From an uncultured bacterium (GTDB lineage Bacteria > Bacillota_I > Bacilli_A > RF39 > UBA660): 47,817 bases of DNA. The translations under genes were made by a program, and so were the position numbers. Positions 1-6,228 of this stretch are shown in pieces. The notes under the pieces were generated by a model. The model saw only the letters and a list, made by a program, of their open reading frames with translations, made no database searches and was not told where the DNA came from. The stretch's first letter is position 1. Every line of letters starts with the position of its first letter. The stretch spans positions 1 through 47,817 of the forward strand of contig CASDZZ010000006.1 of the NCBI GenBank assembly GCA_949285875.1. The letters run 5' to 3'.

Positions 1-1625
1 AAACTAGTTAAGGATGAGCATTCATTAAACATCCAAGCCAACGTAGTTACATTAGAAGTATCAAATTTACTTACATTTAAACTTGTTAGTGATGAACAAC
101 CAGAAAACATATACGTCATATTAGTTACATTGCTTGTATCAAATTTACTTACATCTAAGTTAGTTAAGGATGAGCAACCATGAAACATAGCATTCATATT
201 TGTCACTTTAGAAGTATCAATATCTCCAAAATTTATGTTTTGCAAAGAAGAACAACCATAAAACATTTTTCCCATTATCGTAACTTTACTTGTATCAAAA
301 TTACTTATATCTAGACTTATTAAAGCAGAACAACCTTGAAACATACCACCGTAACTATATCCATAATCATCACCCATAATAGTTACGTTTGAAGTATCAA
401 AATTACTTAAATCCAGTTTAATTAAAGAAGAACAATATTCAAACATGCTTTTCATATTTGTCACTTTACTTGTAACAAAATTACTTACGTTAAGTTCTTT
501 TAATTTAGAACAAGCTTTAAACATGTTGTCCATCGTTGTTACATTTGTTGTATTGAAATTATTTAAATCTAAATCCGTTAAAGAAGAGCAGCCATAAAAC
601 ATATAACTCATATTTGTCACTTTAGTCGTGTTAAAGTTACCTACATCTAAATTAGTTAAGGATGAGCAACCACGAAACATAAGACTCATATTTGTTATTT
701 CTAAGGTGCTAAAACCACTTACATCCAAGCTAGTTAAGGAATAACACTCACGAAACATACCACCCATGTTTGTTACATTTACAGTATTAAAATACTCTCC
801 AAAATCTATGCTTTTTGCATTTTTAAAATAATAAAATAGATTTGATGAATTAACTGGTGCATATATTTCCCCTATACCACCTATATTTAATTCATATAAA
901 TTATTATTGTCATTATCAGTATACCAAGCTATTACTGTCATATCTTTATTATATGAAGCATCCCAGAAACCCAAAGCATCTTCTCCCACTTCTAATGTAG
1001 GTTGAAAAGTAATTGTTTCCACACTTTCCTTTGTTATTGGTCCTTCATTAAAGAAGTGTGCAGTTTCATTACCACTTGTTCCTTGTGCAAGTATTGAAGT
1101 TGGTTTTACAAAATTAAATTTTATCATGGTATCTAAATTTGTATTACTAGGTAAAGTTATATCATCTTTATATTTTATTGTTAAATAAAATTCTTTTGTT
1201 TCTCCATGTTTTATTAATTCTTTTATACCTATTCCTTCTAGTTCATACGTCATGTTAGTATTATTATTTATTTTCTGTGTTATACTATCAATCCACATTG
1301 AAACTGTTCCACTATTTACTACTGTTACTTTATACTTTACTACCGAATCTAAATTTGGTAAATTAACCCCTAAAGTTACCGTATTCTTACTAAATTTACT
1401 AGTATAATTTTCTACCCCAAGATTTGTTGTTTCATATAATTCTAAGTTTGTTATTCTTATTTCTTCTTGTACCCTAAATGTTGCTTCACCACTTATTTTT
1501 AACTCCTCATTTAATGCTGCATATCCTACTGATAATGATAATGTAAATACACAAAAAAGTAAGAATAATATTAAATTTGTTCTTTCTTTTTTTGTTTTCT
1601 TTATCTTTAACTTTCCTAATTTCAT
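1..1625 (-). CDS. BspA-like surface protein with DUF285 repeats and SipW-type leader (3' end outside window)
   Basis: The frame is open from an ATG at 1625 (AGGTG upstream) to the left edge, giving about 541 residues. The N-terminus has lysines, a hydrophobic core and a LSVGYAALNEELKISG ending, which is the SipW/TasA-type leader and first strand. Residues about 40-250 look like one or two beta-sandwich domains. From about residue 262 onward come roughly nine 26-residue repeats with the pattern L-D-V-S-x-F-(D/N)-T-S-x-V-T-N-M-x-x-M-F-x-x-C-S-S-L, typical of DUF285/BspA-like LRR proteins of Mollicutes and gut Bacillota. One repeat carries an 8-residue Gly/Tyr-rich insertion. The gene is last in the visible SipW cluster, 43 nt after the DUF5305-like gene. 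A surface adhesin or binding role is inferred from the family. The C-terminus, and so any anchor, is not visible. Confidence 0.88.
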   Translation of the reverse strand, partial: MKLGKLKIKKTKKERTNLILFLLFCVFTLSLSVGYAALNEELKISGEATFRVQEEIRITNLELYETTNLGVENYTSKFSKNTVTLGVNLPNLDSVVKYKVTVVNSGTVSMWIDSITQKINNNTNMTYELEGIGIKELIKHGETKEFYLTIKYKDDITLPSNTNLDTMIKFNFVKPTSILAQGTSGNETAHFFNEGPITKESVETITFQPTLEVGEDALGFWDASYNKDMTVIAWYTDNDNNNLYELNIGGIGEIYAPVNSSNLFYYFKNAKSIDFGEYFNTVNVTNMGGMFRECYSLTSLDVSGFSTLEITNMSLMFRGCSSLTNLDVGNFNTTKVTNMSYMFYGCSSLTDLDLNNFNTTNVTTMDNMFKACSKLKELNVSNFVTSKVTNMKSMFEYCSSLIKLDLSNFDTSNVTIMGDDYGYSYGGMFQGCSALISLDISNFDTSKVTIMGKMFYGCSSLQNINFGDIDTSKVTNMNAMFHGCSSLTNLDVSKFDTSNVTNMTYMFSGCSSLTSLNVSKFDTSNVTTLAWMFNECSSLTS

Positions 1626-1668
1626 ATATCAGCACCTACTTTATATTTTTATAGAATCTTTATTTATT

Positions 1669-2865
1669 TTACTTATTTTCTAAATCTGCTAATTTTAATA
1701 TATATCTATATGTTTCATTTGCTGTCTTAACTATAAATATACTTTTTTGTCCTTTATGAATTTCTGAGAATATTATAGGTTTTTCTATATTATCTCTTAC
1801 ATCCAATAATTCATTAAAACTATTTACATCTATCACTTCACTATTTAAATCAACTACTCTTTTAGAATTTACAATAACCCTATCATATTCTCTTAATATT
1901 TTAGCTAATGTTATATCATATATAGTTTTTTTAGCCTTAGTTTTGTTAAGAAATAACAATAATCTTACAATAAATACTAATGATATTACTAAGCTTATAA
2001 TTGATAAACTAAAAACTATTTTATTTGATATATTAAAATCTTTATAAACACTAACATTATCACTATTATTTATTCCTTTTAAACTTGTTTTAATATCTAT
2101 TATTTGCTGTGCTAACGGAATTATTAATTTCATATCATCTTTATCTAAAGATTTAATTATATTTCCTTTTTCATCTTCTATATTAATTATTAAACTAAGT
2201 TCTAAATTACTATCTGCATTAATTGCGTATGAACTTTTAAATTGTTTTGCTAAATTATTATATTTTTCATAATCTACTTTAACTTTTTCATTAATAGCAA
2301 AACCATTTGATGAAGTTTTTGTTATAGTTTTAGGAGAACTTAATTTTTCTGTTTTTGAATATATTATTTTAGATTTATCTTCATCGTTAGCTACTACTAA
2401 ATTTCCTTGAACATAGTACGTATATTTATAATTAATATTTTCATTTGCATTGAAATTATATTTAAAATCAACATCTACATCATCAATTAAACTTGATATA
2501 TATTGCATATTCTCTTCTAAATAAGATTCCGTATAATAATCATTTTCTTTTAGGTATACTTTATAATCTAAATTTCCCGTTTGACTATATGCTATATTGC
2601 TTTTTGTTTTTACCGAAACACTTGATATAAATAAAATTATACCTAATATCATAAGTACAAGAATTATAGATATATTCATTAATAATCTTTCGTTGTATCC
2701 TAAATAGATCTTATTAAACTTATTATCTTGCTCTTCAGTAGAATTATTAAATATTTCACTTGGCATATTAATTTCTTTATTAGTAAAATTTTCTTTACTA
2801 ACTTGCTTTTCTAAATTATCTCCTTTTTTAAATTCATAAAACTTTCTATTATTCATTTTTTTCAT
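1669..2865 (-). CDS. DUF5305-like two-span membrane protein of the SipW cluster
   Basis: 398 residues. A basic, Asn-rich cytoplasmic N-terminus (1-60) is followed by a membrane span at about 62-83, an extracytoplasmic beta-rich domain (about 85-280), a second span at about 283-305, and a cytoplasmic C-terminal domain of about 90 residues. The architecture and the Y-T-Y-Y-V-Q-G-type strands resemble DUF5305 proteins, which from memory occur beside SipW-type peptidases; a domain search should confirm this. ATG at 2865 has AAGGTGG 7 nt upstream and starts 12 nt after the signal peptidase stop, so the two are probably cotranscribed. A helper or assembly role for exported SipW substrates is inference only; no catalytic motif is visible. 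Confidence 0.7.
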   Translation of the reverse strand: MKKMNNRKFYEFKKGDNLEKQVSKENFTNKEINMPSEIFNNSTEEQDNKFNKIYLGYNERLLMNISIILVLMILGIILFISSVSVKTKSNIAYSQTGNLDYKVYLKENDYYTESYLEENMQYISSLIDDVDVDFKYNFNANENINYKYTYYVQGNLVVANDEDKSKIIYSKTEKLSSPKTITKTSSNGFAINEKVKVDYEKYNNLAKQFKSSYAINADSNLELSLIINIEDEKGNIIKSLDKDDMKLIIPLAQQIIDIKTSLKGINNSDNVSVYKDFNISNKIVFSLSIISLVISLVFIVRLLLFLNKTKAKKTIYDITLAKILREYDRVIVNSKRVVDLNSEVIDVNSFNELLDVRDNIEKPIIFSEIHKGQKSIFIVKTANETYRYILKLADLENK

Positions 2866-2877
2866 TTTTACACCACC

Positions 2878-4020
2878 TTATTTATTTAATAGTTCATTTA
2901 AAGCAACCGTTGGCATACCAAGATACTTTATTCTTAATTTAACAGTACCAATAATATCTTCTTCTTTAATAATCCAAGAATCTTTAGTATTATTATTATC
3001 ACCCTTAGTAATAAAATTAATTTTTCCTTCAATCATTAAGATATCTACTACACGGTGAACAATTATCTTATTATCATGATTATATACTAAAATATCCCCT
3101 TTTTTTATTGTTTTAATTTCTGATGTTTTAGTCTTCTTTAAAATTACTATATCACCTTTTTCTATTTTAGGTGACATAGAGCTAGACCCTATGGTTACCG
3201 CTTGATATGTAAACATCCCACTAGTTAATATTACAATTATAAATAACACTATCGTTATAAAAGAATATAATATTAACTTTCTATTATTATATCTAGAATC
3301 TTTTATTTTCCTCATTTCAAAATAACTAAACATATTATTAAGTCTTACCATAATTATAATAGGTAAAACTGTTTTTAATATTACGTTTAAATATTCTCCA
3401 AAATCTGGAAATATAGGAAGCAAATAAGTAGATAAATCTGTTAATAAACGATAAATTATTGCGTTTGAATAACCTACTTTTTGAACCAAATATATTAATA
3501 AAATGTTTTTGGTAATACTTGGAAATACAACCAAACATATCATTTTAGTTAAACCTAAATAGCTAGTAACATCATATAAATGAACCGATATATTAATATC
3601 TATTAATACAAAAACAATAAGACCTATAATTAAACTTGCAATATTACCTTTGGATTTAGTAAATATTTCATATCTTAATAATTCACTAATCACTATAAGT
3701 AATATTACTGGAAATATATTTTTTATAATATTTATAATACTTAAACTATAACTAGTCTTTATAAATCCGGTAAAAAGACCCAAAACATAAGTTATAAAGT
3801 AATATATTAATAAATTTATTATTATGTTTAATAATACATCTTTTTTACTTCTATAGTTTTCTTTTTCAAAACCAAAAAAAATAATACTTAATATAAGAAA
3901 TGACGTAAGTAATGCACTTATAACATACATATTTGCTATTTTAAATACAAAACTACTAAACAGCAAAAAAATCAAAAGAATAATTTGTAAAATAATTACT
4001 TTATTATATCCCTTTCTCAT
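2878..4020 (-). CDS. sipW: SipW/ER-type signal peptidase I with multi-span N-terminal membrane domain
   Basis: 380 residues. The C-terminal about 115 residues form an S26 signal peptidase domain: Ser-Met box (G-S-S-S-M-S-P, catalytic Ser about 281), an H-R-V motif (His about 322) where bacterial type I enzymes have Lys, and the G-D-N-N...D box (about 340-347). Ser/His in place of Ser/Lys marks the ER-type group to which Bacillus SipW belongs. Unlike ordinary SipW (one or two spans, about 190 residues), about 250 N-terminal residues form roughly eight hydrophobic segments. Genes on both sides encode proteins with SipW-type leaders or cluster partners, so the likely role is processing of the camelysin-like and LRR proteins. 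It lies 70 nt after the camelysin-like gene, behind a weak hairpin. Confidence 0.85.
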   Translation of the reverse strand: MRKGYNKVIILQIILLIFLLFSSFVFKIANMYVISALLTSFLILSIIFFGFEKENYRSKKDVLLNIIINLLIYYFITYVLGLFTGFIKTSYSLSIINIIKNIFPVILLIVISELLRYEIFTKSKGNIASLIIGLIVFVLIDINISVHLYDVTSYLGLTKMICLVVFPSITKNILLIYLVQKVGYSNAIIYRLLTDLSTYLLPIFPDFGEYLNVILKTVLPIIIMVRLNNMFSYFEMRKIKDSRYNNRKLILYSFITIVLFIIVILTSGMFTYQAVTIGSSSMSPKIEKGDIVILKKTKTSEIKTIKKGDILVYNHDNKIIVHRVVDILMIEGKINFITKGDNNNTKDSWIIKEEDIIGTVKLRIKYLGMPTVALNELLNK

Positions 4021-4065
4021 AAAACCACCACTTTTTAATAGTTTTGTATTTAAATAACAACATAA

Positions 4066-4086
4066 AGAAGAGAAAAAATCTCTTCT
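4066..4086 (-). terminator. Hairpin between camelysin-like gene and signal peptidase gene (probable attenuator)
   Basis: Arms AGAAGAGA and TCTCTTCT (8 bp, 5-nt A/T loop) lie 5 nt after the camelysin-like stop. On the transcribed strand the tail is TTATGTTGTTATTT rather than a clean T-run, so partial termination with read-through into the peptidase gene is likely. This is inference from structure. Confidence 0.6.
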
Positions 4087-4090
4087 AACG

Positions 4091-4672
4091 TTATTTTTGT
4101 ACGTATTGTAGTGTTATTCCTAAATCAGAAATTTCAACATCATCACTTGGAACTTTGTCACTATCAAAAGCTAATTTTAAAGATAAATTCTTTGTTTCAC
4201 CTTGATTTAAAGTATCACTTTTGGCAACTGGCAAATCATTATCTGTGTATGTTAAAGTATAAGTTAACCCATCACAAACGATTGTTTCATCTTCACTTAT
4301 ACCAGAATTTGAAGTACAAACTGGTTTTAAAGATTTTGTAAGTTCAGATAAGCTCGCGTCAATAGTTCCAGCATTTTTAACATCAAACGTAAATAAAACT
4401 GAGTCTCCTGGTTTGGTTATAGTAACATCATAATCACCTATAGTAGTACTTTTTTCACCACCAATTTCAGGTTCTTGATTAATTACTGCACTTCCTGTTA
4501 CTTGTCCTGGATTCAAATTTTCAAAATGAATATCCCATGTTGCTGCATTAACTCCTGCTGTTCCATTTATTTTTAACGTTGTACTTAAAGCAGCAAAAGC
4601 TACTGTTAATCCTAGGATGGCAACTATTAATGCAATAACTGATAATGTTTTTATTTTTCTTTCTTTTTCCAT
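4091..4672 (-). CDS. TasA/camelysin-like secreted protein with SipW-type leader
   Basis: 193 residues. Basic start (MEKERKIK), hydrophobic segment at about 9-28, then A-F-A-A-L-S-T-T-L-K-I-N-G-T-A, the characteristic SipW-dependent leader and first strand of TasA/camelysin-type proteins. The rest is beta-rich and Asp/Thr-rich, with two cysteines about 15 residues apart that could form a disulfide. It is the first gene of the cluster, with a very strong ribosome site (AGGAGGTAGGG, 5 nt from ATG) and its own promoter, and a hairpin follows it, all fitting a highly expressed structural subunit. Family membership is by leader pattern and size. A fibre or matrix role is inference; it could also be a metallo-endopeptidase-like camelysin relative. 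Confidence 0.8.
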   Translation of the reverse strand: MEKERKIKTLSVIALIVAILGLTVAFAALSTTLKINGTAGVNAATWDIHFENLNPGQVTGSAVINQEPEIGGEKSTTIGDYDVTITKPGDSVLFTFDVKNAGTIDASLSELTKSLKPVCTSNSGISEDETIVCDGLTYTLTYTDNDLPVAKSDTLNQGETKNLSLKLAFDSDKVPSDDVEISDLGITLQYVQK

Positions 4673-4699
4673 ATTCCCTACCTCCTATTACCATAATTA

Positions 4700-4728
4700 A
4701 TAGTATCATATACCCTTAAAATAGTCAA
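4700..4728 (-). promoter_or_regulatory. Sigma-A-type promoter of the SipW cluster
   Basis: Read on the minus strand: TTGACT, 17-nt spacer, TACTAT, with TGA immediately before the -10 (extended -10). It lies 28 nt upstream of the camelysin-like ATG. Confidence 0.7.
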
Positions 4729-4745
4729 TCTATTCACCATCTACT

Positions 4746-5276
4746 TTAAGGTGATATTTTTTTATCATTAGTCTTATCTTCATCAACGTAATTAAAGTTG
4801 ACTAACTGGTACATATTCCAGTTAACCCCTATTTCTTCTAACATTGTTATTTGTTTTTTTGTAAGTTCTCCTAGAGCATAAGAAAAAATACATTTTTTAA
4901 GCCAAGCTCCTAATTTAACCACATTACCTTTTAAGTCCGAAACCATATAGTCTTCACTTATATCCAAGCTTTTATGTTCTTCATAATACTTTTTAGCAAG
5001 TTCATATTTTCTTAACCATTTTTTATCGATATACTGCTCTTTAAATTCAGAAGCAGTCCAAACCATACCTATTTTATTTAACATCTTAATTTGCTCTTCA
5101 TCTAGCTTTCCTAAAGAATATAAATCCCTAATATTAGTAATCCATTTTCCTAATTTTATTACCCTATTATTGTCTTTTATTTTGTAGTTTCTAGGGATTA
5201 TTAAATTATTGTTTTTCTCGTAATATTCATTTGCAAGTCCGTAATAAAAGTCAAACTTATCATAATCATATTTCAT
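4746..5276 (-). CDS. Small protein of two helicase-associated (HA) domains
   Basis: 176 residues with two tandem modules of about 75 residues, each following the HA-domain pattern (A-x-x-Y-Y-E ... L-x-I-x-x-x-Y ... K-L-G-x-W-(L/I) ... Y-x-L-G-x-L-(D/T)-x-x-Q-I-x-x-L-x-x-I-G-(M/V)-x-W). HA domains usually sit at the C-terminus of large superfamily-2 helicases and probably bind nucleic acid. Here they stand alone with no ATPase. An upstream in-frame GTG (5288) lies inside the Shine-Dalgarno AAAGGTGG, so ATG 5276 is preferred. The gene follows fmt by 16 nt and ends the cdsA-rseP-fmt operon. Function unknown; nucleic-acid binding is inferred. Confidence 0.8.
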   Translation of the reverse strand: MKYDYDKFDFYYGLANEYYEKNNNLIIPRNYKIKDNNRVIKLGKWITNIRDLYSLGKLDEEQIKMLNKIGMVWTASEFKEQYIDKKWLRKYELAKKYYEEHKSLDISEDYMVSDLKGNVVKLGAWLKKCIFSYALGELTKKQITMLEEIGVNWNMYQLVNFNYVDEDKTNDKKISP

Positions 5277-5292
5277 TTTAATAACCACCTTT

Positions 5293-6228
5293 TTACTTAA
5301 ATATTTTTTTAATAAAATCTTCTTTTTTTATTCCATTAATAAAATCTTTAACTAATACCTTCTTTTTACCTGGCATTTGTAATTCTGTTATTAAAATAAC
5401 ATTATCCTTTGTAGCTACTTCAATACCTTCTTTAGAAATATCTAATATTGTTCCCGGCATTTCAACACATTTTTTATCACTTATTTTGCTGGACCATAAT
5501 TTGATATTTTTCTCATCTAAAATTGCGTATGCTCCAGGCCATGAATTTAAACCTCTTATTTGATTAAAAATTTCTCTGGCACTTTTATTAAAATAAACAT
5601 GTTCCTCTTCTCTTGATACATTATAAGCATAAGTTGCTTTACTATCATCTTGCTTTATTCTCTCGTTAGTTCCAGCTACTATCTTATCTATCGTATTTTT
5701 TAAAAGAGGTACAGATATTTTTTGTAATTTATCGTGTAGTGTTTCAGCAGTATCAGATTCTTCTATCTTTATTTCTTCTTTAGATATCATATCTCCAGTA
5801 TCCATTCCTTTATCCATATACATAATAGTTATCCCAGTTTTATCATATCCATAAATAATAGCCTTATGAATAGGAGCGCCACCCCTTAACTTAGGAAGTA
5901 AAGATGCATGAACATTAATACAACCATATTTTGGATTATCTAAAATAACTGGTGGAATAATTTGGCCATAAGCACATGTTACAATAAGATCAGCTTTCTT
6001 ATCTATAATTTTTTCATAATCTTCTTTTATCTTAACCGGCTGAAAAACATCAAGCCCTAATTTCAAAGCAAGTTCCTTTATAGGAGAATATGTAATTTCT
6101 TTTTTTCTTCCTACTTCTTTATCCGGCTGCGTAACAACTAACACCACTTCATATTCTTTATTTAACATTTCTAAAATAGGCACACAAAAAACTGGAGTTC
6201 CCATAAAAATTACTTTTAATTTTTCCAT
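5293..6228 (-). CDS. fmt: Methionyl-tRNA formyltransferase
   Basis: 311 residues, normal length. It formylates Met-tRNAfMet using 10-formyl-tetrahydrofolate. Visible signatures: N-terminal F-M-G-T-P-x-F, the I-N-V-H-A-S-L-L-P-K-L-R-G-G-A-P-I segment with catalytic Asn and His, the M-D-x-G-M-D-T-G-D loop with the catalytic Asp, and a C-terminal OB-like domain from about residue 205. An upstream in-frame ATG at 6249 was rejected because AGAAGG lies 7 nt before ATG 6228. No def gene is adjacent. The folD gene elsewhere in the window feeds the same formyl-folate pool. Confidence 0.95.
   Translation of the reverse strand: MEKLKVIFMGTPVFCVPILEMLNKEYEVVLVVTQPDKEVGRKKEITYSPIKELALKLGLDVFQPVKIKEDYEKIIDKKADLIVTCAYGQIIPPVILDNPKYGCINVHASLLPKLRGGAPIHKAIIYGYDKTGITIMYMDKGMDTGDMISKEEIKIEESDTAETLHDKLQKISVPLLKNTIDKIVAGTNERIKQDDSKATYAYNVSREEEHVYFNKSAREIFNQIRGLNSWPGAYAILDEKNIKLWSSKISDKKCVEMPGTILDISKEGIEVATKDNVILITELQMPGKKKVLVKDFINGIKKEDFIKKIFK

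Follow-up and report, generated by a model that had tools for sequence, protein, structure and literature searches.

What is built by four consecutive genes at one end of a contig from an uncultured gut-type bacterium, when two of them encode proteins with SipW-type leaders, one a signal peptidase and one a DUF5305 protein? The contig (CASDZZ010000006.1; G000:C6 in our set; RF39 lineage, UBA660) was analyzed over its entire length of 47,817 nt, which is referred to as the window. It is part of a 1.1-Mb genome assembled in 46 contigs. The four open reading frames lie in a row on the minus strand, from position 4672 down to the contig end (Table 1), and encode a small subunit (SUB), a signal peptidase (PEP), the DUF5305 protein and a large protein with DUF285 repeats (LONG). 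An earlier note on this DNA, made from the letters alone, had described a four-gene cluster. The four genes proved real, but the fourth is incomplete, with no stop codon before base 1, where the contig ends.

In our interpretation, the locus is an operon of the SipW class whose products build surface fibers of the donor-strand type, belonging to the camelysin/TasA/archaeal bundling pilus (ABP) superfamily and equipped with a plug-in adhesin. This interpretation is probable, with considerable room for doubt. The gene content, the recurrence of the module, the domain homologies and the predicted folds were established by computation; from these onward we infer an assembly mechanism of five steps, which is given below.

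Recurrence of the module

The earlier note had expected DUF5305, a SipW-type S26 peptidase and DUF285/leucine-rich repeat (LRR) proteins to recur together in related genomes. The survey of gene neighborhoods was clearly positive for the subunit, the long peptidase and DUF5305. The DUF285 part did not hold, as merely 2 of the 37 long proteins found near modules carried DUF285. DUF285 was therefore rejected both as the recurring fourth member and as the defining partner of the module.

The family sample comprised 145 genomes, of which 85 had some peptidase match, and we sorted the matches into long and short peptidases. At the 84 long-peptidase loci, DUF5305 directly followed the peptidase in 75 cases and lay within three genes of it in 80; a SUB gene was present upstream in 65. 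On the other hand, DUF5305 was absent from the neighborhood of all 19 short-SipW loci in this family, which served as a control. Counted by genome, both the long peptidase and DUF5305 were present in 66 of the 145, the long peptidase only in none, DUF5305 only in 10, and neither in 69.

Named genomes were surveyed with the peptidase alignment as the query. DUF5305 was found near 42 of 46 long peptidases, versus 1 of 38 short SipW peptidases. The recurring module is a camelysin/TasA/AbpX-like subunit, a long peptidase and a DUF5305 protein.

The module was found in records named Bacilli, Clostridia, Desulfovirgula, Syntrophomonas and Saccharibacteria, and also in the archaea Methanosuratincola and Zestosphaera. 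In two loci from archaea, L173 and L186, subunits had both the long peptidase and DUF5305 as neighbors; the DUF5305 protein of L173 passed PF17231 (5e-13), whereas that of L186 did not. Among the 295 genomes of a phylum sample, all of one class among those listed, the full-length peptidase occurred only in the family of the window, in seven genomes, each with DUF5305 (7/7). At the genus level, relatives of the DUF5305 protein were present in 17 of 18 genomes. The closest named relative found, L120, had a peptidase 80% identical to PEP.

Within the genus, the eight loci nearest to the copy in the window were compared. In L253 a complete gene for a subunit domain with DUF285 follows DUF5305, in L248 the start of such a gene runs off the contig end, and in L250 a DUF285 gene lies ahead of the peptidase. 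Three others (L249, L251 and L252) had no DUF285 gene beside the module. The adhesin part is thus gained or lost even between close relatives. DUF285 nevertheless persists among them.

A second copy of the module, without DUF285, is present on contig C11 of the same genome. In this copy (L003, G000:C11:8000-24000), two subunit genes are separated from the peptidase gene by the insertion of a transposase-like gene on the opposite strand (4736-5953), IS30-like by eye. The peptidase and DUF5305 genes in turn flank a third small subunit gene, and DUF5305 is followed by the gene of another membrane protein. In locus L050 the complete module occurs twice in tandem, with DUF5305 ahead of the peptidase in one copy, which hints at duplication and shuffling of gene order. 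In a Bacillus record (L195:9882-13628), a short SipW locus with camelysins lies near genes for a DUF5305 protein and for a different peptidase of 369 residues, whose catalytic part is N-terminal. This is perhaps another architecture of the partnership between peptidase and DUF5305.

The fused peptidase and its DUF5305 partner

PEP scored 93.6 bits against the archaeal/endoplasmic reticulum (ER) signal peptidase I model TIGR02228 (cut-off 51.85), and its catalytic part matched human SEC11 at about 1e-24. The catalytic residues were conserved in nearly all relatives (S281 in 81, H322 in 81, D341 in 82 and D347 in 81 of 82). Seven hydrophobic segments are found in the N-terminal part, and one more ahead of the catalytic part. 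These results bore out the earlier description of a multi-span, ER-type Ser/His peptidase of the S26 family.

PEP might be the peptidase of an ordinary Bacillus SipW-TasA system with some decoration, and not of a distinct variant. To some degree, all 82 peptidases matched the models of SipW and of archaeal signal peptidase, and the SUB profile retrieved Bacillus camelysins, as this view would predict. However, PEP reached only 65.9 bits against the SipW equivalog NF046067, far below the cut-off of 190. It also has an extra membrane domain of 235 residues, a DUF5305 protein takes the place of TapA, and among solved structures the SUB profile is nearest to archaeal AbpX. We consider a merely decorated SipW-TasA system decidedly unlikely.

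The extra domain was not assigned by family models. No Pfam family was consistent over the N-terminal 235 residues across the 82 members. The predicted model of PEP (mean predicted local distance difference test score, pLDDT, 91.8) resembled CPBP proteins in fold. Its membrane domain was aligned with SpdC (6u0o) at Z 14.1 (root-mean-square deviation 4.0 A, 222 residues) and with Rce1 (4cad) at Z 12.4 (3.9 A, 215 residues), and the next unrelated helical chain reached only Z 6.8. This CPBP/Rce1-like fold had not been noticed in the earlier note.

Several results counted against the CPBP assignment. It stands on a predicted model, as a resemblance of folds only, and chance Z values for helical bundles can reach about 13-14. 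PF02517 (CPBP) was absent at E 0.1 for the 82 members, among the best 25 of 38 families, and for PEP of the window alone it was absent at E 1. Proof of homology by hhalign was tried and rejected, since the match to CPBP was weak (16.6-38.4%), though the Glu/Arg motif fell roughly in register.

Alternatively, the domain might itself be proteolytically active within the membrane and remove the leader helices once they are cut free, which would put two proteases on one chain. E113 was present in all 82 members and R116 in nearly all, which recalls the Glu/Arg motif of CPBP proteins, and the predicted fold matched Rce1. CPBP proteases, however, rely on conserved His residues, and no conserved His was found in the N-terminal domain of the 82 members, the highest column being 17% His. 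A second protease is thus very improbable. In our reading the domain is instead a CPBP-fold scaffold that probably has no protease activity.

SpdC of Staphylococcus aureus may be instructive in this respect. It has the CPBP/Abi fold and is the closest solved fold to the membrane domain, and, as a membrane protein of the CAAX family, it binds and tunes SagB, an enzyme that works outside the cytoplasm (PMC12272431). SpdC and SagB are separate proteins, the latter a glycosidase, whereas the signal peptidase in the window is fused to its membrane domain.

The label DUF5305-like given in the earlier note was right. In a six-frame family search the protein scored 44.7 bits against PF17231 (cut-off 29), and 67 of its 70 relatives matched the same model. 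A hmmscan of the window protein by itself missed PF17231, and the names that it returned (e.g. LRRC37AB_C) were rejected as sub-threshold chance matches; the matches of the relatives settled the identity.

In the predicted model (mean pLDDT 88.6), a transmembrane (TM) helix (57-82) is followed by an immunoglobulin (Ig)-like beta-sandwich (89-275), a second TM helix (282-309) and a C-terminal alpha/beta domain (315-398). In VIA the sandwich reached at best Z 7.9, among many unrelated Ig folds, and the best Foldseek E value was 1.1e-03. A likeness to a TRAP translocon subunit was considered and dropped, as its Z of 7.0 was no higher than that of other Ig matches. No paper on DUF5305 was found in the open literature.

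With this layout, DUF5305 might instead be the cell-surface anchor of the fiber, or a signaling receptor for it, in which the probably cytoplasmic alpha/beta domain senses or transmits. The two TM helices, the extracytoplasmic Ig-like domain and the conserved C-terminal domain would all suit such a role, and TasA-type fibers presumably need some base. On the other hand, DUF5305 accompanies the long peptidase but hardly ever a short SipW peptidase, which argues for a role with the peptidase and not with fibers generally. We regard the anchor or receptor as a serious rival, though a somewhat doubtful one. A role of DUF5305 in fiber assembly is the reading followed below.

The subunit and the large protein

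Among all solved structures, the SUB profile matched archaeal bundling protein X best (9sj2, 2.1e-07; 9rhp, 6.8e-06), a relationship absent from the earlier note. It also retrieved camelysins of Bacillaceae, e.g. L181 at 3.3e-07, which itself matches PF12389 at 7e-55. SUB thus qualifies for the camelysin/TasA superfamily in the wide sense of homology to camelysins or ABP subunits. Against PF12389 itself, SUB of the window scored 15.5 bits (cut-off 22.5), and only 12 of 55 relatives gave weak matches, with the best at 0.0011. By these profile scores, SUB is placed within the superfamily but outside the PF12389 family model, because it falls below the cut-off.

SipW-type leaders had been proposed for both outer proteins, and were found as LTVAFA followed by ALSTTLKINGTA and LSVGYA followed by ALNEELKISGEA, with the putative cleavage point after the last alanine. 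A strand of the form A-x-L-x-I-x-G was present in all 55 subunits and all 37 long proteins when a loose pattern was used.

LONG matched DUF285 at 194.9 bits (cut-off 25; 3.8e-58), as its label as a DUF285-repeat protein had implied. The SUB model also spanned the first 208 or so residues of LONG. With the leaders taken off both groups, the subunits matched the N-terminal domains of the large proteins in hhalign (99.1%, E 5.7e-19), and within the window SUB matched the N-terminal domain of LONG in blastp (1e-04). The C-termini of the 37 long proteins near modules varied: nine carried Flg_new, three CBM_2 and two DUF285, and others fn3, Gly-rich or lectin-like domains. A C-terminal TM helix or LPxTG motif was found in none of the 26 complete large proteins.

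The earlier note had taken BspA-like repeat proteins to be the exported cargo. Given the homology of its N-terminal domain to SUB, the simplest reading of LONG is that of a minor fiber subunit bearing an interchangeable adhesin, and not of plain BspA cargo. LONG is like the BspA/DUF285 (PARCEL) surface proteins in its C-terminal repeats. It is unlike them at the N-terminus, which is a SipW-type fiber-subunit domain and not a lipoprotein or standard Sec leader.

The locus might also export monomeric SipW-type surface proteins for display without forming fibers, the DUF285 protein being an ordinary BspA-like adhesin. Fiber assembly is as yet a prediction, and DUF285 proteins are a known class of surface proteins, both of which would be compatible with simple export. 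However, the studied members of the SUB superfamily polymerize (PMC9674648), and the large proteins lack an anchor and share a subunit domain that an independent adhesin would not need. Export alone is therefore unlikely, and fibers carrying adhesins remain the preferred reading.

The missing end of LONG may have been located. Elsewhere in the genome, DUF285 was strongly matched only by a 132-residue open end on contig C30, in matching orientation. An intact relative of 770 residues from the same genus (L253:6737-9049) ends in a similar way, with SLITVKNQTAYDFVIGARSDLTNVQIAGA against TLITVKSQKEKDYILGIRSDFTNIQLAG. This suggested that the C30 fragment probably completes LONG, and that the assembly most likely broke inside the DUF285 repeats.

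Proposed assembly, known systems and locus features

In the first step of the proposed mechanism, the 193-residue subunit would be made in excess, the hairpin after its gene passing only part of the transcription. Second, Sec would export the subunit and the large protein, and the leader helix would keep both tethered. Third, PEP would hold both through its CPBP/Rce1-fold membrane domain, which would serve for scaffolding and not for proteolysis, and the SEC11-like domain would cut after the alanine at the leader end, freeing A-x-L-x-I-x-G as the donor strand. Fourth, DUF5305, with its Ig-like domain outside the membrane, would receive or template the subunits and hand them to the growing fiber. 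Fifth, the large protein would join as a minor subunit through its own subunit domain, showing its DUF285/LRR repeats as an adhesin.

Sec export, leader cleavage by PEP, donor-strand release and polymerization are proposed because of the precedents of SipW/TasA/BsaA and ABP fibers (PMC9674648, PMC10151520 and PMC7395162). TasA assembles by donor-strand exchange (PMC9674648), and SipW is required for the export and polymerization of BsaA (PMC7395162). The role of DUF5305 in hand-over or nucleation is the weakest step, and is suggested by its specific pairing with the long peptidase. The SipW-type logic and the dedicated DUF5305 partner put forward in the earlier note were both supported; DUF5305 as an assembly factor is what we infer from the pairing.

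More broadly, PEP and DUF5305 may form an as yet undescribed membrane assembly platform, in effect the cytoplasmic-membrane counterpart of a chaperone/usher. Such a platform would mature, hand over and polymerize donor-strand fibers not only in Bacillota but also in other bacteria and some archaea, and adhesins would be plugged in by fusion to a subunit domain. We propose this tentatively, as a possibility rather than an expectation.

Besides the points on the CPBP fold, the following weigh against the mechanism. The fiber, the cleavage and the interaction in this uncultured organism are predicted from sequence and models alone. The large protein is missing from many modules, being nearby in 33 of the 84 long-peptidase loci of the family. 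The Fisher p values for the DUF5305 association (6e-31 and 5e-18) are too small, since related genomes were treated as independent. The function of DUF5305 cannot be read from its fold, because the sandwich resembles many unrelated Ig folds.

SipW-class donor-strand fibers as a kind are already known in bacteria and archaea. The tapA-sipW-tasA operon of Bacillus subtilis likewise has a minor partner protein, and a dedicated SipW-type peptidase beside small, beta-rich secreted subunits whose leaders are of the same type. Its peptidase, however, is short and without a membrane domain, TapA is not DUF5305, and no subunit is fused to an adhesin. Archaeal bundling pili (AbpA of Pyrobaculum; ABPx/AbpX of Pyrodictium) include the best solved relative of the SUB profile, AbpX, but their subunits are remote from SUB in sequence.

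The Clostridium perfringens sipW-bsaABCRSD operon (PMC7395162) also shows SipW-dependent subunit export and polymerization, a subunit likened by the authors to TasA, and a terminator with read-through after bsaA. Unlike the operon in the window, it adds a sensor kinase, a response regulator and putative secreted proteins, and the passages of its description that were covered name neither a DUF5305 protein nor a long peptidase. For the fused CPBP-like peptidase, the strict DUF5305 partnership and the subunit-domain adhesins, no description was found in the open literature, a 2022 ABP paper being outside the search.

For DUF5305, a family of unknown function, the proposed mechanism offers a concrete and testable role. 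The results also suggested that TasA/ABP-type fibers occur in two enzymological types, one with short SipW and the other with a long fused peptidase and DUF5305. For uncultured gut Bacilli with small genomes, splicing onto a fiber subunit domain is a possible route by which large adhesins are shown without LPxTG or C-terminal anchors.

The hairpin between SUB and PEP has an 8-bp stem and a T-rich tail (z -5.55). In the relatives, the median gap was 8 between PEP and DUF5305 and 29 between SUB and PEP, and a hairpin was found in 8 of the 30 long SUB-PEP gaps; a terminator at this place was rejected as a general feature. An excess of the subunit over the machinery is plausible by analogy, because C. 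perfringens has the read-through terminator after bsaA. Promoter-like sites in the region, including the one in Table 1, numbered 38, versus 35.7 in shuffled sequences, which is no excess; the single promoter of the earlier note is accordingly putative.

Table 1. Features of the locus and of the contig carrying the probable end of LONG
Feature	Position	Strand	Basis
SUB, 193-aa subunit with SipW-type leader, camelysin/TasA/AbpX superfamily	4091..4672	-	ORF list and profile matches
PEP, 380-aa fused signal peptidase	2878..4020	-	domain models and predicted structure
PEP membrane domain with multiple spans (residues 1-235), fold predicted to be CPBP/Rce1/SpdC; conserved E113 and R116, no conserved His	3316..4020	-	
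PEP residues 246-380, last TM helix and S26B (SEC11-like) catalytic domain; S281, H322, D341, D347	2881..3285	-	
DUF5305 protein, 398 aa	1669..2865	-	PF17231 matches and predicted model
LONG, 541 aa, SipW leader, subunit domain and DUF285/PARCEL repeats, open at contig end	3..1625	-	
LONG residues 1-185, leader and fiber-subunit domain homologous to SUB	1071..1625	-	
Promoter-like site, extended -10 (TTGACT, 17 nt, TG, TACTAT)	4700..4728	-	consensus match only
Hairpin with T-rich tail between SUB and PEP genes; possible read-through terminator	4066..4086	-	
DUF285 fragment, probable remainder of LONG	G000:C30 = L245:10862-11260	-	open-ended at contig end

In a near relative (L120 and L247, 972-2330), a 452-residue protein that begins like a type IV pilin (KGFTLIELLAVIVVLAIIMVIATMAV) is encoded two genes upstream of the module. 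Directly upstream of the operon in the window (4746-5288) lies a gene for a 180-residue protein with helicase-associated (HA) repeats, which is probably unrelated.

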